Assembly: GCA_034190875.2 (NCBI GenBank)
Contig: CM067356.1
Location: forward strand, 22,532,258 to 22,596,257
DNA from: Urechis unicinctus
Taxonomy: Eukaryota; Annelida; Polychaeta; Xenopneusta; Urechidae
DNA: 64,000 bases
Reading direction: 5' to 3'
Below are positions 2,106 through 64,000 of the stretch, one piece after another (within the stretch, counting starts at the first letter, position 1; every line of letters starts with the position of its first letter). Below the pieces are notes generated by a model, which was given only the letters and a program-made list of their open reading frames with translations, searched no databases and was not told where the DNA came from. The translations under genes and the position numbers were made by a program.

Positions 2106-4115
2106 AATAGCCATATACCACATTTCGATCGACTGGAGTAGCCATACATCATATTTCAATGGACTGGAAAAACAAGTATAGGGTTTAACGACACACCATC
2201 ACTAGTGGGCAAGCCGCCACTAGCCGATTGACTGGACCAGGCCATGCATCTCTTCTATGTGAAATCCAGGCCAAAATGGTGTGTTCAATGGACTGGAGTA
2301 GCCCTACATAATTTTTCAATGTATTGGAGTAGCTGTACACCATATGTAAATAAACTGGAGTAGTAAGTGTTCATATTTCATTGGACTGGAGTAGCCTTAC
2401 ACCATATTTCAATAGACTGGAGTAGCTTTACTCAATATTTCAATGGACTGAAGTAGACCATATACCACATACCAATGGACTGGAGAAACCGTAACCTTTA
2501 TTACAATCCATTGGAGTAGCTGTACATCATATTTCAATTGACAGGAGCAACCATACACCATATTTTAATGGAAGTGAGTAGCAATACACCAAATATCAAT
2601 ACACTGGAGTACACATACACCATATTTCCATGGACTGGAGTAGCCAAACACCATATTTCAATGGACAGGAGTAGCCTTACACCATATTCTAATGGACTGG
2701 AGTGGCCATACACCATATATCATTGGACTGGATTAGCCGTGCACCATATATCAATGGGCTGGACTAGCCTTGCACCATGTTTTAAAGTACTGTAGTAGCT
2801 GTTCATCATATTTCAATCTACTGGAGTAGCCATACGCCATATTTCAATAGACTGGAGTAGTCATACACCATAATTCAATATACTGTAGTAGCCACAAACC
2901 ATATATCAATGGACTGGACTAGTCGTGCACCATATTTCAATCAACTGGAGCAACCGTACACCATATATAAATCAACTGGAGTAACCATACACCATATATC
3001 AAAGGACTTGAGTGGCAGTACACCATATTCCATTGTACCGGAGTAACCATACGCGCCATTTCTCATTGGATTGGAGTAGCAATGCACCATTTTTCAATAG
3101 ACATTAATAGCTGTACATCATATTTTAATGTACTGATGTAGACGTGCACCATATTTCAATGGACTGGAGTAGATGTGCACCATATTTTCATGGACTGGAA
3201 TTGCCGTACAACATAGTTGATTGAACTGGAGCAACCATACACCATATTTCATTAGACTGGAGCATATTTAAATGGACTGGAGCAATGGACGTAAGTAGCC
3301 ATACATCATATATCAATAGCCTGGATAAGTCAGGGTTCATAATTAGAAGAACTTTGAGTAGTCATACACCGTATTTCAATTGACGGGGGTAGCAGTACAC
3401 CTTATTGCAAGGAACCGGAGTAGCCGTACACCATATATCAATAGACTGGAGTAGTCAGGGATCCCATTTCAATGGACTGAAGTAGCTGTACACCATATTT
3501 CAATGGACTGCAGAAACCATTTACCATTTTTTCAATGGACTGTAGTAGTTGTACACCATATTTCAATGGACTTGAGCAGTCAGGGTTCATTATTAGAAGG
3601 ACTTGAGAAGCCATACATCATATTTCAATGGACTGTAGTAGCTGTGCACCATATTTCAATGGACTGGAGTAGCTGTGCACCATATTTCAATGGACTGGAG
3701 TAGCTGTAGGCCATGTTGCAATGGACTTAAGTAGTCAGGGCTCATAATTAAATCGACTTGAGTAGCCGTTCGCCATGTTTTAATGGAATGGAGTAACTGT
3801 ACACCATATTTCAATGGACTGGAGTAGCTGTTCACCATATTGCAATGGATCGAAGTAGCCGTCCCCCATATATCAATGTACTGGAGTAGTCAGGGTTCAT
3901 ATTTCAATGGCCGTACACCATATTTTGATGGACTGGGGCAGCCAAGTACCACACTTTAATGAACAGTGGTGGCCATACACTATAACTCAATGGACTTAAG
4001 TATCTGTACATCCTATCTTAATGGATTGGAGCGGCTGCAAACCCTATATAAACAGACTGGAATAATTGGTGTTCATTTTTCAATAGACTCGAGTAGCTGT
4101 TCATCATATTTAATC
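2106..4115. repeat. Degenerate minisatellite, 31-bp unit, about 60 copies
   Basis: A unit of the form GGACTGGAGTAGC, then about five variable bases, then ACCATATTTCAAT recurs for about 2 kb. Exact 31-bp spacing is visible between adjacent units starting at 3661 and 3692. Copies differ by point changes (GGAGTAGCC, GGAGTAGCTGT, GGAGTAGTCAGG) and some are truncated. A variant type containing AGTAGTCAGGGTTCAT recurs near 3321, 3577, 3733 and 3886, suggesting sub-families. The short ORFs in this stretch (60-85 codons) are translations of the repeat and not genes. Confidence 0.93.
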
Positions 4116-4189
4116 GTATTTTCTCTACGGTTTACATGGACAATAATGGTTTTATCCATTATGTTTCTAATAGACTATCTAGGTTGATT

Positions 4190-4520
4190 ATCGTTTGCAA
4201 GGAGCCATCAACGTAGGCAGGGTCCATGTGTAATGTGAGGAGAGTAGGAAATGTAATATATACTATTTGTTGTAATAACTGTCTTAAGTAACGTAAGGCT
4301 ACATTGTATTTTACTAGTTGCCATTTACAACGGAGGGGCCCATGTGTAATTTGGAGCAGCTCATTTGCTTTCTTATTTTCCAACTAACTTAGGTGTCAAA
4401 GGTCTTAAAGGCTGATTATAGATGTCTATTTACCATCAACATCAGAGGGGTCCATATATATTCTGTAAAAGCTAGCTAGCTTTATAAACAAGCATTCCCT
4501 GTTGCATTAACTTAGGAGTG
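4190..4520. repeat. Three degenerate copies of a ~115-bp tandem repeat
   Basis: Three related blocks begin near 4203, 4319 and 4432 with the pattern GCCATC/TTAACG..AGGGGTCCATGTGTAA, each followed by an AT-rich stretch containing CTTAAG or CTTAGG. Spacing is 116 and 113 bp. The block abuts the 31-bp minisatellite but is unrelated to it. Confidence 0.6.
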
Positions 4521-5157
4521 ATTTACATGTGCTATTTTTCTCAAATAGCACTTGAGTCAAAAGTCACACTCAAGTTATGAGGGTAGGTTTGGCACGGTGT
4601 GCCAGTAGCCGTGCTAAATCAGAATCACCACGGCGTGTTTGTCATCCATCTGCTCTCGAGCTGAGACCCCAGGGGCTATCATGGCGATGCGCCGTTGAAG
4701 CATGCTCTTCCCACCTTTATAATATGATATTCAGGTCTCAGGCAGTGTTCAATCATGTTATTATCAACAAAGAAGTGACAGAATAATGACATTATCTTTT
4801 CAATAACAGTAGCACTGGAATTAATGTGTGTTAATGCATAAGTTAAGATAGACAAACAGGAGTTCAGTAACCCCTGACTATGATGTTACGCTTCAATGTC
4901 TACATACTCAGAAGTTTGTTTATGCAATATTAAACAACAAATCAAAGCTATCGTTTGTGATATTGCTAGAAGTCGCACTTGTGTGCCCCCTTCAGCTTAT
5001 ATGTCGAGGAAGCCACGCCCTTTGGATTTATAAATACATATGGCAACATATCAAGGCAGAGACGATGTGGCATCTATTGGTTGTTCTTATTCGGGAATTG
5101 ATCATGCATAATGATCACAAGGCGTCTTCAATCTGAAATTATAAGCTGTCAATATCC
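4521..5157. other. Non-coding, contains a small GC-rich island
   Basis: About 150 bp near 4580-4720 is clearly richer in G+C than its surroundings and contains several short palindromic words (GGCACGGTGTGCC, GCTCTCGAGC). It was compared by eye with 5S, U1-U6 and tRNA patterns and fits none. A 69-codon open frame covers it but shows no domain. No function is proposed. Confidence 0.4.
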
Positions 5158-24461: not shown

Positions 24462-25180
24462 CACAGGGTCGATGTAGTGCTTTTACCTCTCCTGCGTTGG
24501 GATGTGTAAGGCTATACCTCTACCGCGTTGGGATGTGTAAAGGCTATCCTCTCCCGCGTTGGGATGTGTAATGGCTATATCCTCCCGCTGTTCAGTGAAT
24601 ATGCCGCCCCTGCTAATGGTTATACCTCTCCCGCGTTGGGATGTGTAATGGTTATACCTCTCCCGCGTTGGGATGTGTAATGGCTATACCTCTCCCGCGT
24701 TGGGATGTGTAATGGCTATACCTCTCCCGCGTTGGGATGTGTAATGGCTATATCCTCCCGCTGTTCAGTGAATATGCCGCCCCTGCTAATGGTTATACCT
24801 CTCCCGTGTTAGGATGTGTAATGGTTATACCTCTCCCGCTTTGGGATGTGTAATGGTTATACCTCTCCCGCGTTGGGATGTGTAATGGTTATACCTCTCC
24901 CGCGTTGGGATGTGTAATGGCTATATCCTCCCGCTGTTCAGTGAATATGCCGCCCCTGCTAATGGTTATACCTCTCCCGTGTTTAGGATGTATAATGGTT
25001 ATACCTCTCCCGCTTTGGGATGTCTAGTTGTTATTCCTCCCTCGCATTAGGGTGCATAATGATTATCCCTCGCTCGCGTTTGGGTGTTTTATGGTTATAC
25101 CTCCCACGTGGCGGGGTGTGAAATGAATATACCCCCTTTGTGGTGTGTGATGGTTATACCTCGCCCGCTTAAGTAACGGC
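24462..25180. repeat. 32-bp minisatellite with a 173-bp higher-order unit
   Basis: The base unit is TACCTCTCCCGCGTTGGGAT followed by GTGTAATGGTTA (32 bp). A divergent insert beginning CTGTTCAGTGAATATGCCGC occurs at 24588, 24761 and 24934, exactly 173 bp apart each time, so blocks of several 32-bp units have been duplicated as a higher-order repeat. Units near the right end (25020-25180) are more diverged, as is usual at the edge of an array. Confidence 0.93.
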
Positions 25181-26272
25181 TTTATCCCACGCAATAGATT
25201 GATTGCTGTATCTCACTGGCATTCCTCTTGCCGGATAATTGCGAGCCAACTCTTTTCTGGCATCGCAGCAAGCTGGGTGCTACTCGGCTCGAATCAAGTC
25301 AATCCAATCGATGCTGCAGTTTAATGGGTAAATTTCTTACCAGAACAAGTTATCAGAAAGAGGTATGCTGTTCACAAGATTTGATTTAACAGTACTTACT
25401 AAACACGTTGTTATATGCACTATTTCTATTGAACAGTTCCCAAGATCTGGTGTGCCGGGTCATTACTATCAGTGGCCGTTAGACGAGTCGCGCATGTATC
25501 ACACGTAGTGATGGCCATGAATTGGCCGCCTGTGAACAATGAACGCCGGCGCCCTCGGCAACGGTAACAGGTCCGACAATTGGCGATTATCCGAATGGGC
25601 AGTGAGTCCCCTTTGTTTGTCCATATAGTGTTGACACAACTAGTAACCTGAAGTCTTTTGTTCGATTGACAACTCGACATAGGAGTCGCCGCCTATGGTT
25701 CTATGCTGCCAATATGACGCAGCTGCAGCCTCCTTGCGCCATAGCACCCTGATAACGGAGGGCAGGGGATTTCGACATTGACGGGAGAGAGGTAATTAGT
25801 GGCATGTAGATGCGGCTCATTAGAGTGCCGTGCTCGTGCCGAGGCGGGGTCGCTTCTATCTGGCCATTGCGCTCCACAACACCACAACTTGATACATAGC
25901 TTTTGAGGTAAGAAAGACATTTTCAGCTGGCCATTTCTCCCGTATCGATTAAGGCAGGACCAGGCGTCCGCGGAGACATTTGATGGCCAATTCGGCCCCC
26001 TGGCGGCGATTGGCTAGCCGGATATTGGACTATGGATACCAATAGCAAACTGAGCCATGTGTGCGGTTATTCGCACGGGAAGAGACTGGGTGGGTTAGTA
26101 AAGTCGGCCTGGCAGTGACACAACGGTGTCCATTTATCATGGGTCGTATCCCGCTTACGGCAATTGACAGTGTGTCGTTTATTGATCAGTAGAGATGAGG
26201 AAAAAGGATAGTTTGATATAACTTTCATATTTCGGTTGCCCCGCGGATAACAGGGCAAGTCAAGTTAACCAA
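25181..26272. other. UNC93A: Upstream region of the UNC93-like gene
   Basis: The G+C and CpG content is visibly higher than in most of the window, especially 25430-26150, which would fit a promoter or 5' UTR region. No TATA box or initiator can be assigned. The minus-strand ORFs here (63-96 codons) have no recognised domain. An in-frame TAA at 26219-26221 lies 51 bp before the ATG at 26273, which supports that ATG as the start. Confidence 0.4.
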
Positions 26273-28545
<2,273 letters not shown>

Positions 28546-41017: not shown

Positions 41018-42065
41018 AAATAAAAAGGTCTGTCTAGTCATGACCGCACTCAAGGTTCTACTCAAAACTACGACTAAGGGTAACTTGGTTAAATAACTGA
41101 CAGCATTATATCAATATGTGGTGATCTGAGTGCTACATCCGACATTAGTGAGACAATTTAACATGTGTGTATACTTAAATCATCAGTTACTGCCTCTAAT
41201 GATGCAGGATTGATGAAAGGGGTAGATTTGTAAAACAAGTGTACCTGTTATGTTGTGATGTGATTATTATACAGATGCCCATTCATTTCCTCTGCTAAGC
41301 TGGCACCTGCTTTGCACAATCAGTGCATGATTACATAACAATTGACACGCCCAAGCGAAGACAATATAACGGTGGATTACGCAGGGAGACATTTGATATT
41401 TTGCAGACTGCTCATATTCGTCGCTTGCGATTTCAACTACGAACTGCGAAGAAGTGATATTTCAAATAGCAGTCGGTAAATACTGCAAGGTAACGGCATA
41501 ATGTAAATCTAATATAGGCGGGAAAGACTAGTAAGAAATGATATATATACGTAACGTGCAAGAGCCTGCCCTATCTAAACGTGTTCACAACTGCACTCAT
41601 ACTCACGGTGCTCTTTAGGCATTGGAAGAAAGAATAATGTCCCAGAGTTCACCTGAGCGTTATACCTGATATTAGGAATATTACCTAAAATTTGCTGATC
41701 AAAAGAATATCCTTAGCGCGTTACAACCCTACATTGGCTAAATTGATGTCGGGTGCGGTGCAAACATATTTACCTAGCCTGCGCTTTAGTGTATAGTAAG
41801 CATTTATGTGCTGACATAAAAGCATAATTGGATGTGTTTTATCACCACTAAACAAGCCAATCCTCGGATGGAAATGCTTGTGTCCGCCTCTACACTGTGA
41901 TATATCGTGTGAGTTATGAGGCGTCTGTTGTAGATTGCGCGAGCCTTGATTGCTTAGCTTCGTAATTCGAGCATTCACTCGTATCACAGAACTAATACTG
42001 TACACGAATTAAACGTGCCGTTGTCATCAATCTGTGTTGTCGAATAACGTTAAGATTAACGTCTG

Positions 42066-42278
42066 AATATATGTATGTATATGTATGTATGTGTATGTGT
42101 ATGTATGTATGTCTGTCTGTATGTATGTATGTATGTATGTATGTATGTATGTATGTATGTATGTATGTATGTATGTATGTATGTATGTATGACTCTATGT
42201 ATGTATATATGGATTGATGTATGTATGTTTGAATGTAAGTAAGTATGTACGCATGTAAGTATGTAGATATGTATGTGT
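42066..42278 (+). repeat. (TATG)n microsatellite, copy A, first block
   Basis: TATG repeats to about 42190, then the spacer GACTCTATGTATGTATATAT followed by degenerate TATG words up to the 122-bp PLE-like unit. The spacer plus the unit form the block that is triplicated in copy B. Confidence 0.92.
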
Positions 42279-42400
42279 TTCGGTCATTTCTTAATTCTTT
42301 AAGACGAACTGCTAGTTGTACTTTTCTGTTAAAGGCGGTTGTCATTTCCGATTGTGAAGGTGTCGAGTTCTGTATTAAACAGATTCAGTCTTCGTCGTGT
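42279..42400 (-). mobile_element. Possible Penelope-like retroelement fragment
   Basis: A 122-bp non-repetitive unit lies between TATG tracts. Read on the minus strand it encodes TAFNRKVQLAVRLKELRND, preceded in another frame by LNLFNTELDTFTIGND. The pattern LN, then D, six residues, D, three residues, F-x-RK-x2-L resembles from memory the segment before the reverse transcriptase of Penelope-like elements. In this copy a 2-nt gap splits the frame; the copy at 58436-58556 reads through. The match is short and only a suggestion. Confidence 0.35.
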
Positions 42401-42618
42401 TCGTGTTATGTATGCATGTAAGTATGTATGTAAGTATGTATGTATGTATGTATGTATGTATGTATGTATGTATGTATGTATGTATGTATGTATGTATGTA
42501 TGTATGTATGTATGTATGTATGTATGTATGTATGTATGTATGTATGTATGTATGTATGTATGTATGTATGTATGTATGTATGTATGTATGTATGTATGTA
42601 TGTATGTATGTATGTATG

Positions 42619-42650
<32 letters not shown>

Positions 42651-42785
42651 TGTATGTATGTATGTATGTATGTATGTATGTATGTATGTATGTATGTATG
42701 TATGTATGTATGTATGTATGTATGTATGTCTGTATGTCTGTATGTATGTATGTACGTGTGTATGTAGTTATGTACTTATATATGT
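42401..42785 (+). repeat. (TATG)n microsatellite, copy A, second block
   Basis: About 350 bp of nearly perfect TATG from about 42412 to 42760, ending in CGTGTGTATGTAGTTATGTAC, which also ends the equivalent tract in copy B. ORFs of YVCM and IHTY type are artefacts. Confidence 0.96.
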
Positions 42786-43572
42786 ACATATGTTTAGTGC
42801 ATAGCCGTACGGTTTATAATACATACAGCAGTGTTTTCAATTTAGGGGCTTAAGAGTGCGTTATCTGATGTTATCTACGTTATTAATTTAAATCAACAAA
42901 CACGCCAACTTTTGAGTCTATATCTGGGTCCAAAGTAGCTGTATCTGAAGTGCTCCCAAGGCGAGGCAATAAGCTAATCTACCGCATATTTCATGCCGGC
43001 CATCAAACTGTAATGTTCCGCATGCTTTGTATGGCACTTATTGCCACCCAGCTGGAATATGTGTTCATTTTGTTAAAAGTGGATTGTTCAAGATAACGTT
43101 GGCAGACCAACGTCGGCTGAGTTAACTACAGCATACAACATTAGCTTATGTATGTTTAAGCACACGTGTAGGACAGAGAGAAGGGGTCGTGACAATATGG
43201 AAAGACAGCAAAATATCTGTGGTTACAGATGAAGCTTAAATACAATTGTCTTTTGAACAGCATAAGGGTCGAGCGAATATTCGTGTGATATTCTATTGTT
43301 CTTCTGCAACGTCGCTCACGCTCTGCCCATTTTCAGCTTCGTATGTCTAATAATGTCTGTCAAGAGCCATAATTTGTAAATTCTTCATGTTCCGTCTACT
43401 AATCGTCAGAAAGACTTAACAAATGGTTGTAAGGGCTTGGCTCACCAATTAGATAAAACGCTGTAGACAGCAAAAGATGCAGGTAGATTCAGTAAAGTGG
43501 TTTTCATGGAAGAGTTTTGATGAAATCTGCCTTCAAATTACCACAAACACGAGAATAAACTGGTGATTGACC
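42786..43572. other. Non-coding flank left of the transposon
   Basis: No gene. It matches 59143-59948 of copy B apart from small indels, for example a 21-bp segment (TGCAACATGATAGTTCGAGA and one more base) present in B near 59475 and absent from A near 43120. Confidence 0.7.
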
Positions 43573-43757
43573 TTAAAGATCATAAACACAATTTTTTTTA
43601 AAAGCGAAATTCGAAAGAATAAACTTCAATAATGGTATTCATATCAATAGCGGTTACTTTGGAGCACCCTATTCCTTTAAAAAATGATTTTAAAGTGTTT
43701 GTTTTCGTCTTCCACTCGTTGAACATCCCGCTCGGCAACGTTCGGAATTATTTGGCC

Positions 43758-43769
43758 CGTGACGTCACG
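43758..43769. promoter_or_regulatory. CRE-type palindrome upstream of THAP gene
   Basis: CGTGACGTCACG, a perfect palindrome containing the CREB/ATF core TGACGTCA, lies 116 bp before the THAP start codon. The identical 12-mer is at 47191-47202 before the opposing gene. A further 11-mer, TCGCGGATCGT, is at 43823-43833 and 47121-47131. Promoter or transposase-binding use is inferred. Confidence 0.55.
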
Positions 43770-43884
43770 TTCGCTGCTCTGTGCTCGCTGATCACGAATG
43801 TCAACAAGTTTCGCCATTGTTGTCGCGGATCGTTGATGGTTTATGAAAAAGTCTTCACGGTTTGTTACACTCACAGTTTGGATT

Positions 43885-45880
43885 ATGCCTTATTGTTGTG
43901 TCGGTTAAGTGTAGAAACGCCGAGAGGTCAGGTAAGAGTTTCTTTCGGTTCCCGAAAGACCGAAAAATGCACAAGAATTGGATTGCAAAGGTGAAGAGGA
44001 AGGATTGGAAGCCGACCAAAACAACTCCTGTCATTTGCTCCGACCACTTTGAGAGGGACGCCTATGAAACGGTCCCAGAGCTGCTCAGAAGTCTGGGCTT
44101 TTCTAAACAAACTAGGCTCCGCCAAGGTGCCTTGCCAACGATTTTTAATTACATGGGTGTGAACCAGGATCGAGTAAAACGTCGAGGTGCCTTTGAGAAA
44201 AGACGACGTCAACAGGTAAGATAGCTAGGACCATTCAATTTTTATTCCCAGTCATGGTTGTGCCTTTGTGTTTGATTGACAGCAAAATTTATTTCTTATA
44301 TGAATAATCATACGACCCAAATGACATGGCCGTGTTAAGGCTAAGGCATCACTGATGAAGAAAGGCCCCATGAGCATGGCTCAATAACTGGTGTTTCAAT
44401 GTGATCTCAAAATGCTTGCCTGTTTATTGTTTAGGGATTTGGATACACTACACACTGTGTTTAATTGGTCCATTTACACGAGGAGTACTACTGATGTCAT
44501 AGGACAAATTAGAAGAAATATTGATATAGGTGATTTTGATCCCTATTTTGGGAAATATCATTGGTGTACAACTGGTCGACACTGAAACACATGATGCCTC
44601 TGTTTGTAGGTGCTGCATGAAATGTTAACTGGAGCTGAGATGCTTGATGCCTCCAGTGAAAGTGAAAACGAGATGACAGGTGTGCCCGAGATAGAGGCCA
44701 GCTCAACTGAACCGGTAGAGGGCTCCCACAAATCGTTTGGAGTTCAAACATGTTTGCTTGTAGGTATATTGAGTCACCTGGATGTCTATATTCGACATGG
44801 AAAGTGACGAGGATGATATGGATGAACATGCAGTGCACCAGGAAATGTAAGTGATAGTTTACTTTGAAAATACTCCTGTAAACAGTGGAATTGTATTGCA
44901 TACTTATAAAAATCAGTGCTCTCTCATAAGCATAATAAAGCACCTACAACTTTGGTTTTATAGAGGCATTGAGCTGGAGGATGGCCCTGGTCGTGAACAG
45001 CAAACACCTTCTGAAAGACATTGGCAGATTATCTCCGTCTGAGCAGACTTCCAGCTTAGAATCTTTCCACAAGGTGGTGATCTTCTTCGCACCCAAGAGT
45101 GTACACTTTCCCTTTGCCACTATGGAAGCAAGGTAATTTAATTGAGCTTTGCTGTGACTGTAGTGTGGTATATATTGCAAATACCTGATCTAAAACATGG
45201 GTTTATGTGGTTGGTGCTTATAAAGTTATGAGATTCTGGTGTATTGTGAGCTCACATAGGGCATACCAGACCACCAGGCTATATCTGCTACTGTTGGTGC
45301 TTTACTTCCAGATTACTCCTTGCAGTTTTGCATTTTAATGAAAACTCCAATAGAGCTCGGGCAGTCACTCAACAAGGCCAGGCACAATGGGGAGTGTCCT
45401 TTCCAAAGTCCAGACAGGGGGATCCAGTGGCGAAGCCTGTCAAAGTTACCATCACTTTTGGTTGGTATATATCACAGGATTTGTTGTTCAATATATGTAA
45501 ATATGAGTTAAACAATAATGTAATGCTGGCATTTATTAAGATAAATTTATTATGAGTCTCCGCAGTGCCCATAGGGTAATTATACTGGCACAAAAGACCA
45601 AACATTCCATTTAATGATTCAAAGACTATTTATTACTAATCTTTTATTAACTGGTTATGTTTCAGATTATGTTGACAACCTCATTACTGAAGTGTTTTTG
45701 CTTCGTGAGAAATATCCCAGTTACAGACTGGCGAAAGTTCTTTCGGCGGAAAGGAGTGATCCACCCCTATTGCTGCTCAATTTGAAAAGCCAGCAAAGGA
45801 CATTCTTGTGGGAGCACACCGATGCCGCTTCAATCATGCAAAGAAAATCTACTCAGCTACTTTCTAGGTATCCTCTGTAA
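43885..45880 (+). pseudogene. THAP-domain Kolobok-like transposase remnant, five exons, frameshifted
   Basis: Exons are 43885-44215, 44610-44763, 44964-45132, 45312-45460 and 45666-45880, all GT-AG with matching phases (donor at 45461 is the weaker GTTGGT). The start reads MPYCCVG, then one extra base (T at 43905/43906) puts KCRNAERSGKSFFRFPKD out of frame. Allowing for it gives 338 residues. The THAP C2CH signature is clear: Cys pairs at the start, the tryptophan of HKNW, CSDHF (near 44037-44051) and GALPTIFN (44126-44149) as the AVPTIF-type end. Exon 2 is acidic and ends near SFGVQTC. Exons 3-5 carry KHLLKDIGRLSP, QTSSLESFH, FAPKSVHF, LAVLHFNEN and DYVDNLI, the conserved C-terminal part of long THAP-transposase proteins as I remember them. 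The several hundred residues that normally lie between are absent, as the intron is only 200 bp. An acidic ORF with a strong GTAAGT donor (44782-44846) may be a scrap of them. Its 3' end overlaps the opposing gene. Confidence 0.82.
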
Positions 45881-47075
45881 AGGCCCTCTGGATCTAGGAA
45901 TGTAGATCTTATTTTGTTTAAGACACATGATGGCAATACTTTTCTGTTATGTCTACCTAATCTGTGCCACACCCAGTAGATGAAACAGCGATAGGCCAAA
46001 TATCTGAATGACCTGGAGCAAAAAAGAATTGATTATTTCTTAGGGAAATATGAAAATAATGTTTTTTTAACTCTTTTTTTTTTGGTCAACTATGTACTCC
46101 AGATATAAATGTATTGCTGGTTTTGTTGTTTGTTGTCATGTAGCACTGAACGTGATTACCAAATGTATTGCACACCATGGACACTTGGAATACACATTGT
46201 CTATGTCCAGAAGTGGCTGTGTGTCTTATATTTGCTTCAATAAAGGCATAACTAACTCAATTGTGTTAACTTCATCCCCTATATGTCCATCTATCTGTAT
46301 GTACTCGAATTTGGATGCAAGCAGGACATTACGGTCAAAACAGTTTGACTTGAACCCTGGATGTTCGGTCATTCATGGCCACTCTTCTATTGTTGCCAGA
46401 GTCTTCGGGTAATTTTGACAACAAACACATTCCCGCAATGTGGTCATCTGATCGCAGTTGTTACAGCTACACCTGAAAGGTTGCCCAAATCAAGCTTTAG
46501 CCATTTTTAATTCCATGTTAGATCATTCAAATAACAAAAGCTGACCCAGCAGTCCATGTTTGTCCATGATTCACAAATTCTTCTGACTTTGACGGGGTCT
46601 GACTTTATTTGTGAGCAAAAGAGTAGACTTAGTCTTTTAAATAAACACTGATGAGAGATATATTAACAGGACGTCTAAATTCTGAAAGGGGCCAGTTCAC
46701 AGGCACCCAAGTCAATTATGTGATCATACATGTCACTATCGCTCGGGGAAAGCGCTGGGTGAATTTATTGACTTGGGTGTGTGGGCCAGATAGACCCCAT
46801 TACACGAAATTGTTATTTCTACCTATACTAATCCATTTCGATATTTAGACTAATAGAGACGAAAAAATTTTTACCCACCACACTTCCACTGGCCTGAAAG
46901 TCAAAGCGTCTTTACTGCATTCATTTTCCGAGTCGGAATCCGTTTCTGAGCTCTCAACATCATTATCTGACTCGGTTGCTATTCGCAATCGTGTGGGCTC
47001 AAATAAATACCAATGGACATCATAAGTCCTCATTTCACATAATGAGGCTTCATAATCTTCATCTGATGACGACAT
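45853..47075 (-). pseudogene. P2X7 C-terminal (ballast) domain-like protein, three exons, in-frame TGA
   Basis: On the minus strand exons are 47075-46879, 46472-46305 and 46012-45853. The GT-AG junctions are both phase 2 and give 174 residues. An in-frame TGA at 47093-47091 precedes the ATG, so the start is the first available. Exon 1 has YDVHWYLFEPTR and an acidic Ser-rich stretch, ending VEVW. Exon 2 opens CSCNNC, then RECVCCQ; the join gives W-C-x-C-x2-C as in the Zn-binding cytoplasmic end of P2X7. Exon 3 has YLAYRCFIYW, VLPSC, NKIRSTF and GLYRGY, matching AYRCY, ILPSC, RIRKEF and GQYSGF of human P2RX7 in order. There is no channel part, only the ballast-like domain, as in many invertebrate paralogues. 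A TGA at 46375-46373 replaces the Cys of P2X7's CIT motif, and the frame then continues with MTEHPGF. It is a one-base nonsense change, or less likely a recoded codon. The role of the protein in the element is unknown. Confidence 0.88.
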
Positions 47076-47190
47076 GTTAATAGATACCAATCAGTAGAAA
47101 GGAAAGTTGCAGGGAAAAAATCGCGGATCGTATAATTTTTCTCAGCTTCCGAAATACCACCTTCGAATTTGTTTTGGGACGAGCCGCAAA

Positions 47191-47202
47191 CGTGACGTCA
47201 CG
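47191..47202. promoter_or_regulatory. CRE-type palindrome upstream of P2X7-like gene
   Basis: CGTGACGTCACG, identical to 43758-43769, lies 115 bp upstream of the minus-strand ATG at 47075. The near-equal distance to both start codons suggests matched promoters at the two ends of the element. Confidence 0.55.
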
Positions 47203-47425
47203 CGACCTGCCGCAAAATGGACAGGGATCCTAGCGACCAACTGGTGCAAAATGGACTCAGGGAATTCAATCGGAATTAAACCCGAGCACCACATTCTCAG
47301 CGGATTTATGTCCACAATACTTGAGAGAATGTAAAATTATCTACCGTGGTCAGATTAAAAGATATTTTCCTACGTTTTGAAACATAAAAATCGGATGTGT
47401 CAAAAACGTTAGTTTTGATCTTTAA

Positions 47426-50400
47426 GAACCCAATTACAGCAGATGCATATTTTATAAAATAGAGAATAAATTCCGGACGGGAACTATTGTGTTAACTCTT
47501 CATGTCCAACGAGGTATTAATGGATACAGCCAGTCGTAAATTCTTCAGAATGCTAAGACCCAACCTAAACAACGTCGCTTTCTCTAGTAATCTACAACAG
47601 AGGCAATCATTAACCTTGCCGACATTTACTACACAGTATTACACCTTATACCAGACACAGTCCATCAAACACTTAGTAATTCATAAAATCCCCCAATATG
47701 TAAATATCGATACCAAAATATTGTCATGAATATGATTTGAATATTTGATTATTTATGAAAGGTTCACCCACGGATGAGCACCGTCATGACTCCCAGTCTA
47801 ACGAGATTGGTTGCTGGTAAATAAAACTGCAAAACAGGTGTGAGGTGCCAAACAAATGTCACAGGAAACATGTTACAGCCTTCTGCATTAAGACTGTCGG
47901 CACCACCACTTTACGACGAGTGTTTGGTGCCACCCCTCCCAACCAATAATGACAACATCTACAACGTGTCTCCTTCACACACAATTACGTGGAGGCGCAG
48001 GCAACACTTTATGTTTAACTCAAGTACATCCTACAGAGTTACTTAAGATCCGATTGTCACGCCATTTGTCAGACAAAGAATACGTCACACAAGCAAACCA
48101 AATTGATCTGATAGATAAGATATGACCTTTTTAATTTTGATTAGCAACTTTCATTACGCAGGAAGTTAGCAGCACAGACGTATGACTCACCTAAAAAATG
48201 AACATTGTGCTTGATAACTTCGAATGTGACACCAGCCCTTGTAGCTTAGCTACATGAAAAAGTGCATGATGCATGAGCTGTTTTTACAGTTAATATTACA
48301 AACGAATCGTATTGAATTTGCTGATCGAAGCATACAAATGACTGTTGAACATGAGGATACTACCATCGACTGTAGAACATTTGGAACATTTCTTACAATA
48401 TAAATGGGGGTCGCATTTGCACACTTAAGCGAACTATATGTTCTTGAATAATATATGATTAGGCTATTGCTAAGTTATGTAATCTACGACTAACAATGGG
48501 GATATACATATAGTTGTGAGCTGAGTTAATGGGCTTCAAAAAGGCATGTTACCGTCTCTGTAATACAAAAATGTCTATCATTATCTGCGTGCTTTACGTC
48601 GCGGTTTATACTTAGATAGTTGCATAATATGGCTACGGTAAAGTGCTGTAATATAAATCGCCGACTCCCCACAAATCCATTGAGATCCAAACACTAATTC
48701 TGTACAATTATTGATTGCCAGTAAACCATTACCAAAGCAACGAGACACAATGGGACAGAATCAATGACTCATGGCCCATGCGTATTCTTCAAATCGATCC
48801 GATAATGTTAAAAGGAAGAATCTTCATCTGGGGCACCCAAAGCATCACACATACTTATGCGAAGTGCAATGCTGCAGATTACTTTGTATTTTCCGGCACT
48901 CAAGGGTAAGCTTCTCATCACGATTTACATATGACCACTTCAACTTCCTCGTTCATAAGGGAGGCCTTTTAATATAAAAGCTTCTCGGCGTTCTGCTCGT
49001 ACATTTTCTCTTGAACATCTTGCAATGAATTCTGTATATGCAGATTATCAGAAAACATACTAAAGACAATATCTTTCAGCTGTCTGTGAAGATGAATGAG
49101 ACCAATCCCACGATAACAAAGCTGTTTGCTCAGTGATTGCAATCAGTGGTTACCTGCGCAACAGGTGACAAGCCATCGGAAGGACAATAAATAGTTAGAT
49201 GACATAACAACTTGATGAGTGTTCGGTGGACCACTACCAGGTGATACTGATCAAAGATTAAAAAAACTCTTCACACCAATTTTGTTAAGTGGAGACACAG
49301 TTGTCATTTCAGTTATAACTTCAATGAATCCAAAATAGTCCATGTCATTATTGATAAATTTCATTTTATTTCGCAGGCAGTGATGAAGTATTGTACAAAA
49401 CATTCCGATCAACCAATAATGATATGAAAGATGGCACGAGAGTGCTACGCCCAGAGTAGGTGTGGCGCGGACATATAGTACAGGATTAGACAACGGGTGA
49501 GCATTGTGCGAAGGGGAACATGTACGTGGTGTTTGAGAATACGACATTAATTTCTGATCAGTGCTTGATAAGCAACCGATTGGTGTAAAAGATAGCAACG
49601 CCTCACATCGTCATGTCACGGAATAAGGCTAAGTGATCGTATTGTACTTGCCAATCGAAGCATACAAAGGCATTGTAATCATTGATTTCTATCCAGCCTG
49701 GTGCTTTCATATCAGTCCTGACAACATTAATTGGAAAGTTGCGCAGTAGAACTGGTGTACTTTGAGAGTGGTCATATACGACGGTAGGCACTGGGGCTCA
49801 TGAAATAATGGTGTCGAGTACACGAGAGAGAAAATATTGGTAACAGAAATCTATATTCTTTAATGGTTCATGTTGCTAACAAATGTAAGATAGTCTACCG
49901 TAGCAAATTGTAATACATCTAGATTAAGCGAAATAAGCAAACGACAGTGGTGATACTGCACCGCTTGGTAATCCAATAGCATCTGTCATGCCTTTGGCGA
50001 TATAAATAACTGCATTTAATCGATAGCATCATAAAATCTACCCAGAAAAGCAAGAAAATGACCTAGTGAGCTGCTGTTATAATAATCCTAGATGCCCTGC
50101 GACATAATGAGACGTGCGTTGTTGCGCAAAATAATGAAATGTTTGATTGCATGTCCGTGTATTCCAAATGTCCGCATTTGTATAATATGCTTGACTGTCG
50201 TCCATGTAACTTACTCGCTTGAGATCTCTCGACGCCATTTTATTGTGTGTGCCTGAAGCAATTGCATTACAAAGTTAATAACTAACGCGCGGGTCCAAAC
50301 AATTATAGACTTATCAGTTGTGTCAATACTTTGCAGCTATAGGAACATCACATAGTGTCATTTTACTGTGATATTCAGCACGTGTACCACGAGATGGCCC

Positions 50401-51486
50401 TTGTTCACCTTAAATATACCGGTAAGAGTCGCACCCCCTTTCACTATACACACTCTAGCAGCATAAATTATGTGTAACTTGGATAGAGAATAAGGGCTGA
50501 ATATGTGTTCAACAAATCATAATCTCAGATAATCATGATTTGTACTTTACATTTTTTTCTTCCAACGGAAATGCTTTCAAATGAGTTCAATATTTATGTA
50601 TCTATGCCAGGGCTTTTGTGAGTAGGAAGCAATAATGCGATGGCATAACTGAAGCATTGGTTTTGTATCAAATAAATAAATCCACGAGTGGAAACGATTT
50701 TTATTTGCCACATCGCTGTGTTATACCACGTACTTCATGGGCGTATTGCAACATAATACCGGTGTTGACTTCCTTGCACCCCTAGTATTATCCCGTACCC
50801 AATCTGCCAATAACGCAGTCTGCTAATGTGGCTTAGCGTAGACATGTTGCAATTGAAATAACGGCTGAATAGAATTGGCTTGGGACCAAAATAGCTGTGA
50901 GAATAAACACCAAGGAGAGGAGAAGCAAACATGGCTTTTGGGTAATTTATACAGATTATGATATTTACTGTGCAAATTAAGAGCCACTTTTGGAGTAATT
51001 ACAACTGGGTTGAGATCATTGCATACAATATTGAACGGACAGTCATTATGTCGGCATGTTGCATATGTATGGGCACATCCGTTGGGATTATACATATCTA
51101 TGTGCAGGATGTCAGACTCGCGTGGATGAATACAGCATAATACCTGGCAACATCGTACAGCACGTGTTTAAGCTCATATGTGTTTCAAAATAACATCATC
51201 TTTACAGCGACATATACTTTCTTTATCAGCAACAATGTTTTGTGCGTCGTACATAAATAGTGCAGAAAACCAGCAGGCAGCATAGCACAGTCAAGTCATG
51301 TAAACATTGATTAACAACATTTAGGAATGGGTTGCAGAACAATTGAGCTGGAACAGATGCTCCAAGAAGATATGGCATTCTTTGTACTGTATGATTAATC
51401 GGCATCATATAGATCTTAAGGGAGTGAATACAATAAGGATGAGTTAAATGCATACACCATCAATACGATTGTCTACCATCTTTCCG
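47426..51486. repeat. Non-coding, dispersed repeat family copy 3 (in duplication A)
   Basis: Matches 59953-64000 at about 99%. It also shows older similarity to 28.9-31 kb and 36.9-39 kb. ORFs of 60-115 codons recur in both copies only because the duplication is recent. A 16-bp indel separates A and B near 47770 and 60296. Confidence 0.7.
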
Positions 51487-55516: not shown

Positions 55517-57043
55517 AAATAAAAAGGTCTGTCTAGTCATGACCGCACTCAAGGTTCTACTCAAAACTACGACTAAGGGTAACTTGGTTAAATAACTGAC
55601 AGCATTATATCAATATGTGGTGATCTGAGTGCTACATCCGACATTAGTGAGACAATTTAACATGTGTGTATACTTAAATTATCAGTTACTGCCTCTAATG
55701 ATGCAGGATTGATGAAAGGAGTAGATTTGTAAAACAAGTGTACCTGTTATGTTGTGATGTGATTGTTATACAGATACCCATTCATTTCCTCTGCTAAGCT
55801 GGCACCTGCTTTGCACAATCAGTGCATGATTACATAACAATTGACACGCCCAAGCGAAGACAATATAACGGTGGATTACGCAGGGAGACATTTGATATTT
55901 TGCAGACTGCTCATATTCGTCGCTTGCGATTTCAATTACGAACTGCGAAGAAGTGATATTTCAAATAGCAGTCGGTAAATACTGCAAGGTAACGGCATAA
56001 TGTAAATCTAATATAGGCGGGAAAGACTAGTAAGAAATGATATATATACGTAACGTGCAAGAGCCTGCCCTATCTAAACGTGTTCACAACTGCACTCATA
56101 CTCACGGTGCTCTTTAGAAATTGGAAGAAAGAATAATGTCCCAGAGTTCACCTGAGCGTTATACCTGATATTAGGAATATTACCTAAAATTTGCTGATCA
56201 AAAGAATATCCTTAGCGCGTTACAACCCTACATTGGCTAAATTGATATCGGGTGCGGTGCAAACATATTTACCTAGCCTGCGCTTTAGTGTATAGTAAGC
56301 ATTTATGTGCTGACATAAAAGCATAATTGGATGTGTTTTATCACCACTAAACAAGCCAATCCTCGGATGGAAATGCTTGTGTCCGCCTCTACACTGTGAT
56401 ATATCGTGTGAGTTATGAGGCGTCTGTTGTAGATTGCGCGAGCCTTGATTGCTTAGCTTCGTAATTCCAGCATTCACTCGTATCACAGAACTAATACTGT
56501 ACACGAATTAAACGTGCCGTTGTCATCAATCTGTGTTGTCGAATAACGTTAAGATTAACGTCTGAATGTATGTATGTATGTATGTATGTATGTATGTATG
56601 TATGTATGTATGTATGTATGTATGTATGTATGTATGTATGTATGTATGTATGTATGTATGTATGTATGTATGTATGTATGTATGTATGTATGTATGTATG
56701 TATGTATGTATGTATGTATGTATGTATGTATGTATGTATGTATGTATGTATGTATGTATGTATGTATGTATGTATGTATGTATGTATGTATGTATGTATG
56801 TATGTATGTATGTATGTATGTATGTATGTATGTATGTATGTATGTATGTATGTATGTATGTATGTATGTATGAATGTATGTATGTATGTATGTATGTATG
56901 TATGTATGTATGTATGTATGTATGTATGTATGTATGTATGTATGTATGTATGTATGACTCTGTGTATGTATATATGGATTGATGTATGTATGTTTGAATG
57001 TAAGTAAGTATGTACGCATGTAAGTATGTAGGTATGTATGTGT

Positions 57044-57165
57044 TGCGGTCATTTCTTAATTCTTTAAGACGAACTGCTAGTTGTACTTTTCTGTTAAAGG
57101 CGGTTGTCATTTCCGATTGTGAAGGTGTCGAGTTCTGTATTAAACAGATTCAGTCTTCGTCGTGT
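57044..57165 (-). mobile_element. Possible Penelope-like fragment, unit B1
   Basis: Same 122-bp unit as 42279-42400, with GCGGTC in place of TCGGTC at the left edge. The frame is split as in copy A. Confidence 0.33.
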
Positions 57166-57692
57166 TCGTGTTATGTATGCATGTAAGTATGCATGTATGC
57201 ATGTATGTAAGTATGTATGTATGTATGTATGTATGTATGTATGTATGTATGTATGTATGTATGTATGTATGTATGTATGTATGTATGTATGTATGTATGT
57301 ATGTATGTATGTATGTATGTATGTATGTATGTATGTATGTATGTATGTATGTATGTGTGTGTGTATGTATGTATGTATGTATGTATGTATGTATGTGTGT
57401 ATGTATGTATGTATGTATGTATGTATGTGTCAATGTGTCTATGTGTGTGTGTGTGTTTGTGTCTGTATGTATGTATGTATGTATGTATGTATGTATGTAT
57501 GTATGTATGTATGTATGTATGTATGTATGTATGTATGTATGTATGTATGTATGTATGTATGTATGTATGTATGTATGTATGTATGTATGTATGTATGTAT
57601 GTATGACTCTATGTATGTATATATGGATTGATGTATGTATGTTTGAATGTAAGTAAGTATGTACGCATGTAAGTATGTAGGTATGTATGTGT

Positions 57693-57815
57693 TGCGGTCA
57701 TTTCTTAATTCTTTAAGACGAACTGCTAGTTGTACTTTTCTGTTAAAGGCGGTTGTCATTTCCGATTGTGAAGGTGTCGAGTTCTGTATTAAACAGATTC
57801 AGTCTTCGTTGTGTT
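57693..57815 (-). mobile_element. Possible Penelope-like fragment, unit B2
   Basis: Second copy of the unit in duplication B, nearly identical to B1 (TTCGTTGTG instead of TTCGTCGTG). Confidence 0.33.
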
Positions 57816-58433
57816 CGTGTTATGTATGCATGTAAGTATGTATGTATGTATGTATGTATGTAAGTATGTATGTATGTATGTATGTATGTATGTATGTATG
57901 TATGTATGTATGTATGTATGTATGTATGTATGTATGTATGTATGTATGTATGTATGTATGTATGTATGTATGTATGTATGTATGTATGTATGTATGTATG
58001 TATGTATGTATGTATGTATGTATGTGTGTGTGTGTATGTATGTATGTATGTATGTATGTATGTATGTATGTATGTATGTATGTATGTGGTATGTATGTAT
58101 GTATGTATGTATGTATGTATGTATGTATGTATGTCTGTATGTATGTATGTATGTATGTATGTATGTATGTATGTATGTATGTATGTATGTATGTATGTAT
58201 GTGTATGTATGTATTTCTGTATGTATGTATGTATGTATGTATGTTGTATGTATGTATGTATGTATGTATGTATGTCATTTGTATGTATGTATGTCTGTAT
58301 TAAATGTATTTAGTCTTCGTCGTGTGTATGTATGACTCTATGTATGTATGTATATATGGATTGATGTATGTATGTTTGAATGTAAGTAAGTATGTACGCA
58401 TGTATGTATGTATGTATGTATGTATGTATGTGT

Positions 58434-58556
58434 TGCGGTCATTTCTTAATTCTTTAAGACGAACTGCTAGTTGTACTTTTCTGTTAAAGGCGGTTATGTC
58501 ATTTCCGATTGTGAAGGTGTCGAGTTCTGTATTAAACAGATTCAGTCTTCGTTGTG
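58434..58556 (-). mobile_element. Possible Penelope-like fragment, unit B3 (frame open)
   Basis: This copy has two extra bases (GGTTATGTCATT against GGTTGTCATT), so the minus-strand frame runs through LNLFNTELDTFTIGND into ITAFNRKVQLAVRLKE. It gives the best view of the peptide that resembles the Penelope-like region before the RT domain. It may equally be chance. Confidence 0.38.
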
Positions 58557-58940
58557 TGTATGTGTTATGTATGTATGTATGTATGTATGTATGTATGTAT
58601 GTATGTATGTATGTAGATGTATGTATGTATGTATGTATGTATGTATGTATGTATGTATGTATGTATGTATGTATGTATGTATGTATGTGTATGTATGTAT
58701 GTATGTATGTATGTATGTATGTATGTATGTATGTATGTATGTATGTATGTATGTATGTATGTATGTATGTATGTATGTATGTATGTATGTATGTATGTAT
58801 GTATGTATGTATGTATGTATGTATGTATGTATGTATGTATGTATGTATGTATGTATGTATGTATGTATGTATGTATGTATGTATGTATGTATGTATGTAT
58901 GTATGTATGTATGTATGTATGTATGTATGTATGTATGTGT

Positions 58941-59007
58941 ATGCATGCATGCATGCATGCATGCATGCATGCATGCATGCATGCATGCATGCATGCATGC
59001 ATGCATG
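58941..59007. repeat. (ATGC)16 block inside the TATG tract
   Basis: A clean switch from ATGT to ATGC for about 66 bp and then back to ATGT. ATGC is self-complementary as a repeat (GCAT), so this block can form hairpins. Copy A has no such block. Confidence 0.95.
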
Positions 59008-59142
59008 TATGTATGTATGTATGTATGTATGTATGTATGTATGTATGTATGTATGTATGTATGTATGTATGTATGTATGTATGTATGTATGTATGTATGT
59101 ATGTATGTACGTGTGTATGTAGTTATGTACTTATATATGTAC

Positions 59143-59948
59143 ATATGTTTAGTGCATAGCCGTACGGTTATAATACATACAGCAGTGTTTCAATTTAGGG
59201 GCTTAAGAGTGCGTTATCTGATGTTATCTACGTTATTAATTTAAATCAACAAACACGCCAACTTTTGAGTCTATATCTGGGTCCAAAGTAGCTGTATCTG
59301 ATGTGCTCCCAAGGCGAGGCAATAAGCTAATCTACCGCATATTTCATGCCGGCCATCAAACTGTAATGTTCCGCATGCTTTGTATGGCACTTATTGCCAC
59401 CCAGCTGGAATATGTGTTCATTTGTTAAAATGGATTGTTCAAGATAACGTCAAGTGGCAGACCAACGTCGGCTGATGCAACATGATAGTTCGAGAGTTAA
59501 CTACAGCATACAACATTAGCTTATGTATGTTTAGGCACACGTGTAGGACAGAGAGAAGGGGTCTGACAATATGGAAAGACAGCAAAATATCTGCGGTTAC
59601 AGATGAAGCTTAAATACAATTGTCTTTTGAACAGCATAAGGGTCGAGCGAATATTCGTGTGATATTCTATTGTTCTTCTGCAACGTCGCTCACGCTCTGC
59701 CCATTTTCAGCTTCGTATGTCTAATAATGTCTGTCAAGAGCCATAATTTGTAAATTCTTCATGTTCCGTCTACTAATCGTCAGAAAGACTTAACAAATGG
59801 CGTTGTAAGGGCTTGGCTCACCAATCAGATAAAACGCTGTAGACAGCAAAAGATGCAGGTAGATTCAGTAAAGTGGTTTTCATGGAAGAGTTTTGATGAA
59901 ATCTGCCTTCAAATAACCACAAACACGAGAATAAACTGGTGATTGACC
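59143..59948. other. Non-coding left flank of the empty site
   Basis: Corresponds to 42786-43572 in copy A. No gene. Confidence 0.65.
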
Positions 59949-59952
59949 TTAA
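59949..59952. other. Empty TTAA insertion site of the transposon
   Basis: The sequence GATTGACCTTAAGAACCCAA here is the pre-insertion form of GATTGACCTTAA-[element]-TTAAGAACCCAA at 43565-47431. It gives exact element ends and the 4-bp duplication. Confidence 0.96.
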
Positions 59953-62900
59953 GAACCCAATTACAGCAGATGCATATTTTATAAAATAGAGAATAAATTC
60001 CGGACGGGAACTATTGTGTTAACTCTTCATGTCAAACGAGGTATTAATGGATACAGCCAGTCGTAAATTCTTCAGAATGCTAAGACCCAACCTAAACAAC
60101 GTCGCTTTCTCTAGTAATCTACAACAGAGGCAATCATTAACCTTGCCGACATTTACTACACAGTATTACACCTTATACCAGACACAGTCCATCAAACACT
60201 TACTAATTCATAAAATCCCCCAATATGTAAATATCGATACCAAAATATTGTCATAAATATGATTAGAATATTTGATTATTTATGAAAGGTTCACCCATGA
60301 CTCCCAGTCTAACGAGATTGGTCGCTGGTAAATAAAACTGCAAAACAGGTGTGAGGTGCCAAACAAATGTCACAAGAAACATGTTACAGCCTTCTGCATT
60401 AAGACTGTCGGCACCACCACTTTACGACGAGTGTTTGGTGCCACCCCTCCCAACCAATAATGACAACATCTACAACGTGTCTCCTTCACACACAATTACG
60501 TGGAGGCGCAGGCAACACTTTATGTTTAACTCAAGTACATCCTACAGAGTTACTTAAGATCCGATTGTCACGCCATTTGTCAGACAAAGAATACGTCACA
60601 CAAGCAAACCAAATTGATCTGATAGATAAGATATGACCTTTTTAATTTTGATTAATAACTTTCATTACGCAGGAAGTTAGCAGCACAGACGTATGTTTCA
60701 CCTAAAAAATGAACATTGTGCTTGATAACTACGAATGTGACACCAGCCCTTGTAGCTTAGCTACATGAAAAAGTGCATGATGCATGAGCTGTTTTTACAG
60801 TTAATATTACAAACGAATCGTATTGAATTTGCTGATCGAAGCATACAAATGACTGTTGAACATGAGGATACTACCATCGACTGTAGAACATTTGGAACAT
60901 TTCTTACAATATAAATGGGGGTCGCATTTGCACACTTAAGCGAACTATATGTTCTTGAATAATATATGATTAGGCTATTGCTAAGTTATGTAATCTACGA
61001 CTAACAATGGGGATATACATATAGTTGTGAGCTGAGTTAATGGGCTTCAAAAAGGCATGTTACCGTCTCTGTAATACAAAAATGTCTATCATTATCTGCG
61101 TGCTTTACGTCGCGGTTTATACTTAGATAGTTGCATAATATGGCTACGGTAAAGTGCTGTAATATAAATCGCCGACTCCCCACAAATCCATTGAGATCCA
61201 AACACTAATTCTGTACAATTATTGATTGCCAGTAAACCATTACCAAAGCAACGAGACACAATGGGACAGAATCAATGACTCATGGCCCATGCGTATTCTT
61301 CAAATCGATCCGATAATGTTAAAAGGAGGAATCTTCATCTGGGGCACCCAAAGCATCACACATACTTATGCGAAGTGCAATGCTGCAGATTACTTTGTAT
61401 TTTCCGGCATTCAAGGGTAAGCTTCTCATCACGATTTACATATAACCACTTCAACTTCCTCGTTCATAAGGGAGGCCTTTTAATATAAAAGCTTCTCGGC
61501 GTTCTGCTCGTACATTTTCTCTTGAACATCTTGCAATGAATTCTGTATATGCAGATTATCAGAAAACATACTAAAGACAATATCTTTCAGCTGTCTGTGA
61601 AGATGAATGAGACCAATCCCACGATAACAAAGCTGTTTGCTCAGTGATTGCAATCAGTGGTTACCTGCGCAACAGGTGACAAGCCATCGGAAGGACAATA
61701 AATAGTTAGATGACATAACAACTTGATGAGTGTTCGGTGGATCACTACCAGGTGATACTGATCAAAGATAAAAAAAACTCTTCACACCAACTTTGTTAAG
61801 TGGAGACACAGTTGTCATTTCAGTTATAACTTCAATGAATCCAAAGTAGTCCATGTCATTATTGATAAATTTCATTTTATTTCGCAGGCAGTGATGAAGT
61901 ATTGTACAAAACATTCCGATCAACCAATAATGATATGAAAGATGGCACGAGAGTGCTACGCCCAGAGTAGGTGTGGCGCGGACATATAGTACAGGATTAG
62001 ACAACGGGTGAGCATTGTGCGAAGGGGAACATGTACGTGGTGTTTGAGAATACGACATTAATTTCTGATCAGTGCTTGATAAGCAACCGATTGGTGTAAA
62101 AGATAGCAACGCCTCACATCGTCATGTCACGGAATAAGGCTAAGTGATCGTATTGTACTTGCCAATCGAAGCATACAAAGGCATTGTAATCATTGATTTC
62201 TATCCAGCCTGGTGCTTTCATATCAGTCCTGACAACATTAATTGGAAAGTTGCGCAGTAGAACTGGTGTACTTTGAGAGTGGTCATATACGGCGGTAGGC
62301 ACTGGGGCTCATGAAATAATGGTGTCGAGTACACGAGAGAGAAAATATTGGTAACAGAAATCTATATTCTTTAATGGTTCATGTTGCTAACAAATGTAAG
62401 ATAGTCTACCGTAGCAAATTGTAATACATCTAGATTAAGCGAAATAAGCAAACGACAGTGGTGATACTGCACCGCTTGGTAATCCAATAGCATCTGTCAT
62501 GCCTTTGGCGATATAAATAACTGCATTTAATCGATAGCATCATAAAATCTACCCAGAAAAGCAAGAAAATGACCTAGTGAGCTGCTGTTATAATAATCCT
62601 AGATGCCCTGCGACATAATGAGACGTGCGTTGTTGCGCAAAATAATGAAATGTTTGATTGCATGTCCGTGTATTCCAAATGTCCGCATTTGTATAATATG
62701 CTTGACTGTCGTCCATGTAACTTACTCGCTTGAGATCTCTCGACGACGCCATTTTATTGTGTGTGCCTGAAGCAATTGCATTACAAAGTTAATAACTAAC
62801 GCGCGGGTCCAAACAATTATAGACTTATCAGTTGTGTCAATACTTTGCAGCTATAGGAACATCACATAGTGTCATTTTACTGTGATATTCAGCACGTGTA

Positions 62901-64000
62901 CCACGAGATGGCCCTTGTTCACCTTAAATATACGGTAAGAGTCGCACCCCCTTTCACTATACACACTCTAGCAGCATAAATTATGTGTAACTTGGATAGA
63001 GAATAAGGGCTGAATATGTGTTCAACAAATCATAATCTCAGATAATCATGATTTGTACTTTACATTTTTTTTCTTCCAACGGAAATGCTTTCAAATGAGT
63101 TCAATATTTATGTATCTATGCCAGGGCTTTTGTGAGTAGGAAGCAATAATGCGATGGCATAACTGAAGCATTGGTTTTGTATCAAATAAATAAATCCACG
63201 AGTGGAAACGATTTTTATTTGCCACATCGCTGTGTTATACCACGTACTTCATGGGCGTATTGCAACATAATACCGGTGTTGACTTCCTTGCACCCCTAGT
63301 ATTATCCCGTACCCAATCTGCCAATAACGCAGTCTGCTAATGTGGCTTAGCGTAGACATGTTGCAATTGAAATAACGGCTGAATAGAATTGGCTTGGGAC
63401 CAAAATAGCTGTGAGAATAAACACCAAGGAGAGGAGAAGCAAACATTGCTTTTGGGTAATTTATACAGATTATGATATTTACTGTGCAAATTAAGAGTCA
63501 CTTTTGGAGTAATTACAACTGGGTTGAGATCATTGCATACAATATTGAACGGGCAGTCATTATGTCGGCATGTTGCATATGTATGGGCACATCCGTTGGG
63601 ATTATACATATCTATGTGCAGGATGTCAGACTCGCGTGGATGAATACAGCATAATACCTGGCAACATCGTACAGCACGTGTTTAAGCTCATATGTGTTTC
63701 AAAATAACATCATCTTTACAGCGACATATACTTTCTTTATCAGCAACAATGTTTTGTGCGTCGTACAAAAATAGTGCAGAAAACCAGCAGGCAGCATAGC
63801 ACAGTCAAGTCATGTAAACATTGATTAACAACATTAAGGAATGGGTTGCAGAACAATTGAGCTGGAACAGATGCTCCAAGAAGATATGGCATTCTTTGTA
63901 CTGTATGATTAATCGGCATCATATAGATCTTAAGGGAGTGAATACAATAAGGATGAGTTAAATGCATACACCATCAATACGATTGTCTACCATCTTTCCG
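59953..64000. repeat. Non-coding, dispersed repeat family copy 4 (in duplication B)
   Basis: About 99% match to 47426-51486. ORFs are mirrored from copy A with single changes and no domain. No gene is supported. Confidence 0.68.

Follow-up and report, generated by a model that had tools for sequence, protein, structure and literature searches.

Does a gene that resembles the cytoplasmic, cysteine-rich end of the P2X7 receptor form part of a transposon, or does it merely lie where a transposon inserted? The question is raised by a TTAA-flanked element of Urechis unicinctus, found in a stretch of 64,000 nucleotides (assembly GCA_034190875.2, contig CM067356.1, positions 22,532,258 to 22,596,257, forward strand), which is called the window in what follows. 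The original prediction, made from the letters alone, had seen there a THAP-domain, Kolobok-like gene converging on a P2X7-like gene, and had proposed that the latter might be a standard second gene of such transposons. The element is very probably a cut-and-paste Kolobok transposon of the KolX-bearing kind, itself non-autonomous and moved in trans by the transposase of its relatives.

Kojima and Bao (2022; PMC9587614) reported that in the Kol0 lineage of Kolobok the KolX protein resembles residues 476-595 of human P2X7 and has the P2X7 ballast fold, and proposed that P2X7 arose when it fused with KolX. According to the same source, no one had previously noted that the ballast proteins of animals belong to Kolobok families. 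An earlier paper reported ballast proteins across animals, at fewer than ten per species (PMC7016195, 2020); the strings 'transpos' and 'kolobok' are absent from its main text. No other papers linking the P2X7 ballast to transposons or Kolobok were found, as judged by titles and the beginnings of abstracts; the words P2X7 and Kolobok each occur once in PMC9319628. A transposon source for the P2X7 domain, as the original prediction had it, is therefore a sound idea that was already in print in 2022. New here are this particular family, with its missing catalytic core and disrupted frames, and the tally of convergent gene pairs.

The element and its two converging genes

The predicted ends of the element (Table 1) are borne out by an empty site in the same window. 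The window harbors a segmental duplication (41018-51486 and 55517-64000) with 95-99% identity in its main blocks outside simple-repeat arrays; the element interrupts the first duplicate at a TTAA, and the second is uninterrupted there. Arrays of the (ATGT)n type occupy matching spots of both duplicates (42070-42786 and 56566-59141). The termini carry two purines at the 5' end and two pyrimidines at the 3' end (RR...YY; AG...CT in the window copy), the left end reading AGATCATAAA... and the right end being its imperfect inverted partner, AGATCAAAAC... Both the 4-bp TTAA duplication and the RR...YY termini are as expected of Kolobok elements, and the latter recur in the related loci L037, L038 and L032-L034, in a screen that required RR at the 5' end. 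A repeat search found no direct repeats longer than 33 nt in 43000-48000, and the element had no match in a plasmid collection. The palindrome CGTGACGTCACG lies in a subterminal inverted repeat close to each end, upstream of both genes; this repeat is a candidate that could serve as a shared promoter or binding site.

Table 1. Coordinates of the element, its genes and the empty site in the window.
Feature	Position	Strand	Remarks
Left target-site duplication TTAA	43573-43576		Closes left flank
Transposon, 3845 bp	43577-47421	+	Ends AGATCA...TGATCT
Right target-site duplication TTAA	47422-47425		Opens right flank
Subterminal inverted repeat with CGTGACGTCACG	43758-43779	+	Partner at 47181-47202
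THAP exon of transposase gene	43885-44224	+	Start (ATG 43885) inferred from L037; Pfam PF05485
Deletion junction	44993-44994	+	Block of ~1.56 kb with DDE core present here in L041 (element 1417 = L041rc 1721/3283)
Transposase C-terminal exon	45029-45133	+	Presumed third acidic residue (SSLESFHK)
Transposase C-terminal exon	45313-45459	+	LLLAVLHFNEN...
Last transposase exon	45662-45880	+	Start inferred; stop ends at 45880
KolX exon 1	47075-46879	-	MSSSDEDYE..., acidic N-terminus
KolX exon 2	46472-46257	-	Cys motif CSCNNC...ECVCC; in-frame stop in 26/27 copies
KolX exon 3	46012-45853	-	FRYLAYRCFIYWVW...LPSC, closes ballast domain
Empty target site in duplicated segment	59949-59952		Single TTAA, read straight through

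The plus-strand gene, whose frame is broken, combines a THAP domain with the C-terminal part of a transposase of Kolobok type. The THAP domain matches its Pfam family at 63.7 bits (cut-off 23.9), and the exons on its 3' side finish in SSLESFHKVVIFFAPKS...LLLAVLHFNEN...; no Pfam family matched the 154-residue transposase end. The predicted Kolobok-like affinity of this gene is thus retained, whereas its integrity is not: an early stop follows the ATG in 26 of the 27 near-full-length copies described below, and the remaining one, L024, shows no stop within the 60 residues displayed, yet changes frame. Queries for the catalytic core, taken from L037, found no match at E (expectation value) up to 0.01 anywhere in the window, and their sole match below 1e-3 in L002-L030 sits in the flank of L023.

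On the minus strand, the three KolX exons, joined at GT-AG borders, add up to 190 codons, of which codon 99 is the sole stop. Their product matches the Pfam family P2RX7_C (PF20478) at 40.5 bits (cut-off 23.5) and, weakly, a P2X7 chain in PDB (9e3m, E 0.0042), the query for both having slightly different provisional exon borders and an X at the stop; the exon-2 part alone (60 residues) matched nothing in Pfam or PDB. With P2X7 (PF20478; PDB 9e3m, 9e3q) it shares the cysteine motif and the C-terminal AYR...PSC...IR...F..EG.Y.G block, and it differs in being a free-standing gene in a transposon, devoid of the channel part. The cysteines form a putative zinc-binding motif (CSC..C...ECVCC...PSC), with a stop within exon 2 across the family. 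That stop is absent from L014, and the longer relative L041 is open at the same position. A spliced P2X7-like gene was correctly foreseen, but it is not intact here. The two genes do converge within 3845 bp as predicted, with an overlap of 28 bp between their last open frames (45880 versus 45853, taking the deduced ends of the transposase exons).

A core-deleted family and its longer relatives

The host genome (1.19 Gb) was searched with the element, giving 1621 candidates, of which 35 were scored, with 41 matches. Among the matches scored, 27 are near-full-length copies, counting that in the window. TTAA lies on both sides of 22 of them. Of the other five, L002 carries TGAA at either end and L021 TAAA/TTAA; the right end of L007 is cut off, the left flank of L014 is N, and in L027 a one-base shift on the right is needed to obtain TTAA. 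Copies differ from the column majority at 0.34-0.76% of bases, with a mean of 0.50% (insertions and deletions not counted), and each shows 97-99% identity to the copy in the window. Because the copies differ so little from the majority, the natural reading is a young burst. The regions of the KolX exons are kept in all 27 aligned copies.

Judged from sequence, the window family descends by internal deletion from a longer element, because L041 and L037, its longer relatives, possess the core that is missing here. L041 is 89-95% identical to the element across the shared parts. Its extra block of about 1.56 kb encodes GGDARCCSPG (read as D1), TTDRHLG (D2), HWFDVWHVAKG (DxxH) and a zinc-finger-like region, and L041 also has the E block SSLESFH and a convergent KolX. 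Compared with L041, the window family also lacks a second block, of roughly 350 bp. The right end of L041 is TGATCTTTAA, its left 25 bp lying beyond the stretch examined. L037 and L038, which are 98.5% identical to each other, have AGGTCAAAA ends flanked by TTAA, and the THAP, core, C-terminal exons and KolX are all present in L037.

The ancestor would thus have been a longer element, with a THAP-DDE transposase on one strand and KolX as an accessory gene on the other. The catalytic core would have been lost to an internal deletion and the frames of THAP and KolX broken, while the ends remained intact. Relatives elsewhere in the genome would then have supplied the transposase for recent insertion into TTAA sites; recent mobilization in trans is inferred because the ends stayed intact. 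The original prediction had overlooked this non-autonomy and the broken frames of both genes.

The window family shares with the published Kol0 elements that carry KolX the TTAA duplication, the RR...YY ends and a second gene with a ballast domain, and its relatives L041 and L037 share with them a DDE transposase in which DxxH stands between D2 and E; the window family differs in having lost the catalytic core and in its broken THAP and KolX frames (PMC9587614). Kol0 is the candidate lineage on account of the ballast homology of the second gene (40.5 bits to PF20478 in the window copy, 100 bits in L034). KolobokP belongs to the same superfamily and also has an opposite-strand second gene downstream, but it bears long terminal direct repeats of ~450 or 660 bp (PMC9587614), and the longest direct repeats of the 43000-48000 region stay within 33 nt.

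Several points weigh against this scheme. The empty site could also stem from precise excision, and mobility is deduced from sequence copies. The THAP region of L041 changes frame and the core of L038 contains stops, so that no transposase intact from end to end is shown among the copies examined, and none of the relatives was found to combine an intact core with ends that match exactly. The L037 core found no match in Pfam, and that of L033 reached only 20.6 bits against a Mutator-like transposase, below the cut-off of 26.5. The assignment of the core to Kolobok consists of motifs read by eye, in L041 and L037, against published signatures.

KolX and transposase as neighbors across the genome

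A query made of KolX exons 2-3 gave 210 matches in the genome and one made of the transposase end gave 161, of which 150 each were listed. Among the listed KolX matches, 77 have a listed transposase-end match within 3 kb, and the nearest is convergent in 76. The one exception lies 2.9 kb from a transposase match that has its own nearer partner. Both queries derive from the window family and its closest relative, and many of the pairs are copies of one family rather than independent cases. At least 29 pairs occur among the 82 rows listed ahead of the window-family block, all 29 convergent; this is a lower bound, as the count used 43 of the 150 listed transposase-end rows. When the core served as the query, only five of the 150 listed matches had a listed KolX exon-2 match within 5 kb, all five convergent, and 145 had none; the listed exon-2 matches omit the KolX known in L037, so this count neither shows nor excludes KolX elsewhere.

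A wider search used the Pfam ballast family. The 150 scored matches, the best of 2591 first-look candidates, all lie above the family cut-off; many have internal stops, and they are spread over 142 places that are more than 10 kb from one another. A Kolobok match within 6 kb accompanies 23 of them, the nearest being convergent in each case (four transposase queries were used; the 23 include two pieces of a single place, C9:65417). The other 127 have no Kolobok partner within that distance among the matches listed for the four queries; incomplete match lists, other families or lone copies are offered as explanations. The 142 places hint at a large reservoir of ballast sequences when set against the fewer than ten genes per species reported in PMC7016195, although genes and six-frame pieces are not compared like for like.

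Two more distant families have the same layout. In L032-L034, the elements measure 6.8 kb and have TTAA and AGAG(A/G)CTGTTCAGCC ends; the KolX exon of L034 scores 100 bits with P2RX7_C and matches P2X7 at E 2.2e-16. In L031, TTAA ends lie at 498 and 5734, with DIWH and ALENFH transposase pieces on the opposite strand. Finally, L042, a copy of an abundant relative that supplies 40 of the 150 listed core rows, with core frames of 194 residues, has an open core frame and decayed KolX pieces at the expected convergent place. The idea of a standard second gene is therefore upheld for the window family and for these pairs, which falls short of every Kolobok copy. Two further elements were also seen in related loci. 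L035 holds at 2397-5105 a second TTAA-flanked element with AGTGCCTATCGCACG ends and its own decayed ballast gene, apparently nested between the ballast gene of another element and its transposase-side remains, and at 4494-7618 of L031 TTAA flanks an element whose inverted ends match perfectly over 20 bp (AGTCAATAAAATAAATCACC) and which contains two similar open frames, inverted with respect to each other.

In a tree of seven KolX and two P2X7 domains, P2X7 sided with L031, L032, L034 and L035, apart from the window family (99/98). This tree is unrooted, with P2X7 as one clade, a long-branch warning and provisional exon borders in some rows, and it is silent on direction.

Other explanations and the possible role of KolX

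If the P2X7-like exons were those of a host gene that the element had entered or captured, their pairing with a transposase would be a local coincidence. Ballast-domain genes do occur in many animals and transposons go unmentioned for them in the part of PMC7016195 considered, and the 127 partnerless ballast matches would suit this explanation. However, the exon regions are enclosed by the TTAA ends and kept in every aligned copy, the convergent pairing recurs at other sites, and the longer relatives L041 and L037 bear the same two genes, which makes a chance capture here most improbable. Neither of the findings named beforehand as contrary to the original prediction, namely copies devoid of the P2X7-like gene and exons belonging to a host gene, was encountered, and its suggestion to look for further copies in the same genome was rewarded. 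A host gene may still have been the first source, ahead of all these families.

TTAA duplication and a clean empty site are also typical of piggyBac transposons, with which these two features of the element would be equally compatible. The RR...YY ends match those published for Kolobok, though, and the presence of a THAP domain, and of DxxH and SLExFH blocks in L041/L037, speaks against piggyBac, as do the conserved cysteine residues, which are largely retained here and most of which piggyBac proteins lack; we give this identification hardly any credence. Only marginally less remote is the view that the element is autonomous and that its apparent lesions are introns or sites of readthrough. 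Both gene regions keep exons that look spliced, and the ratio of nonsynonymous to synonymous substitution rates (dN/dS) between the window copy and L041 is low (0.19 for the ballast exons, 112 codons; 0.15 for the transposase end, 117 codons). Yet the deleted block contains D1, D2 and DxxH, early stops affect each gene in 26 of the 27 copies, and the low ratios may record history before the burst.

Taking the element as a non-autonomous Kolobok derivative, the low dN/dS values are apparently the trace of a constraint that predates the burst. Values are higher in short or decayed pairs (up to 0.77 between the window copy and L039, 28 codons; 0.63 for the whole KolX against L040), and dN/dS is saturated in many pairs. 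On the KolX strand of L032-L034, upstream of the ballast exon and presumably in one gene with it, lies a cysteine cluster, CRCKGQCVRRCPCKKNGTNCSTRCFC (L032 1083-1400; L033 8037-7441, with one residue different; L034 8053-7436). It gave no Pfam match, and we take it to resemble the CXC DNA-binding motif. Past constraint together with this CXC-type cluster suggests that KolX may be a nuclear, DNA-facing accessory. KolX has decayed both in the window family and in L042, which argues that it would not be strictly needed for movement, or would be supplied in trans; a core-deleted family with a dead KolX offers a handle on that requirement.

It may be, though we consider it rather unlikely, that KolX is an optional partner, constrained while its families are autonomous and yet dispensable to the elements with dead KolX that burst, and joined in one family to a CXC-like cluster; in that case the ballast domain would first have served in the nucleus, as a module facing DNA, and P2X7 would have put it to use at the membrane only much later. 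Be that as it may, one more animal genome independently supports the published proposal that the P2X7 ballast came from a transposon.

Elsewhere in the window, an open frame of 414 amino acids on the plus strand (26222-27466) matches Pfam UNC-93 at 69 bits and is probably part of a host gene. Satellite-like arrays occur at 2284-3910 and 24473-25105, with units of 31 bp and 32/173 bp.
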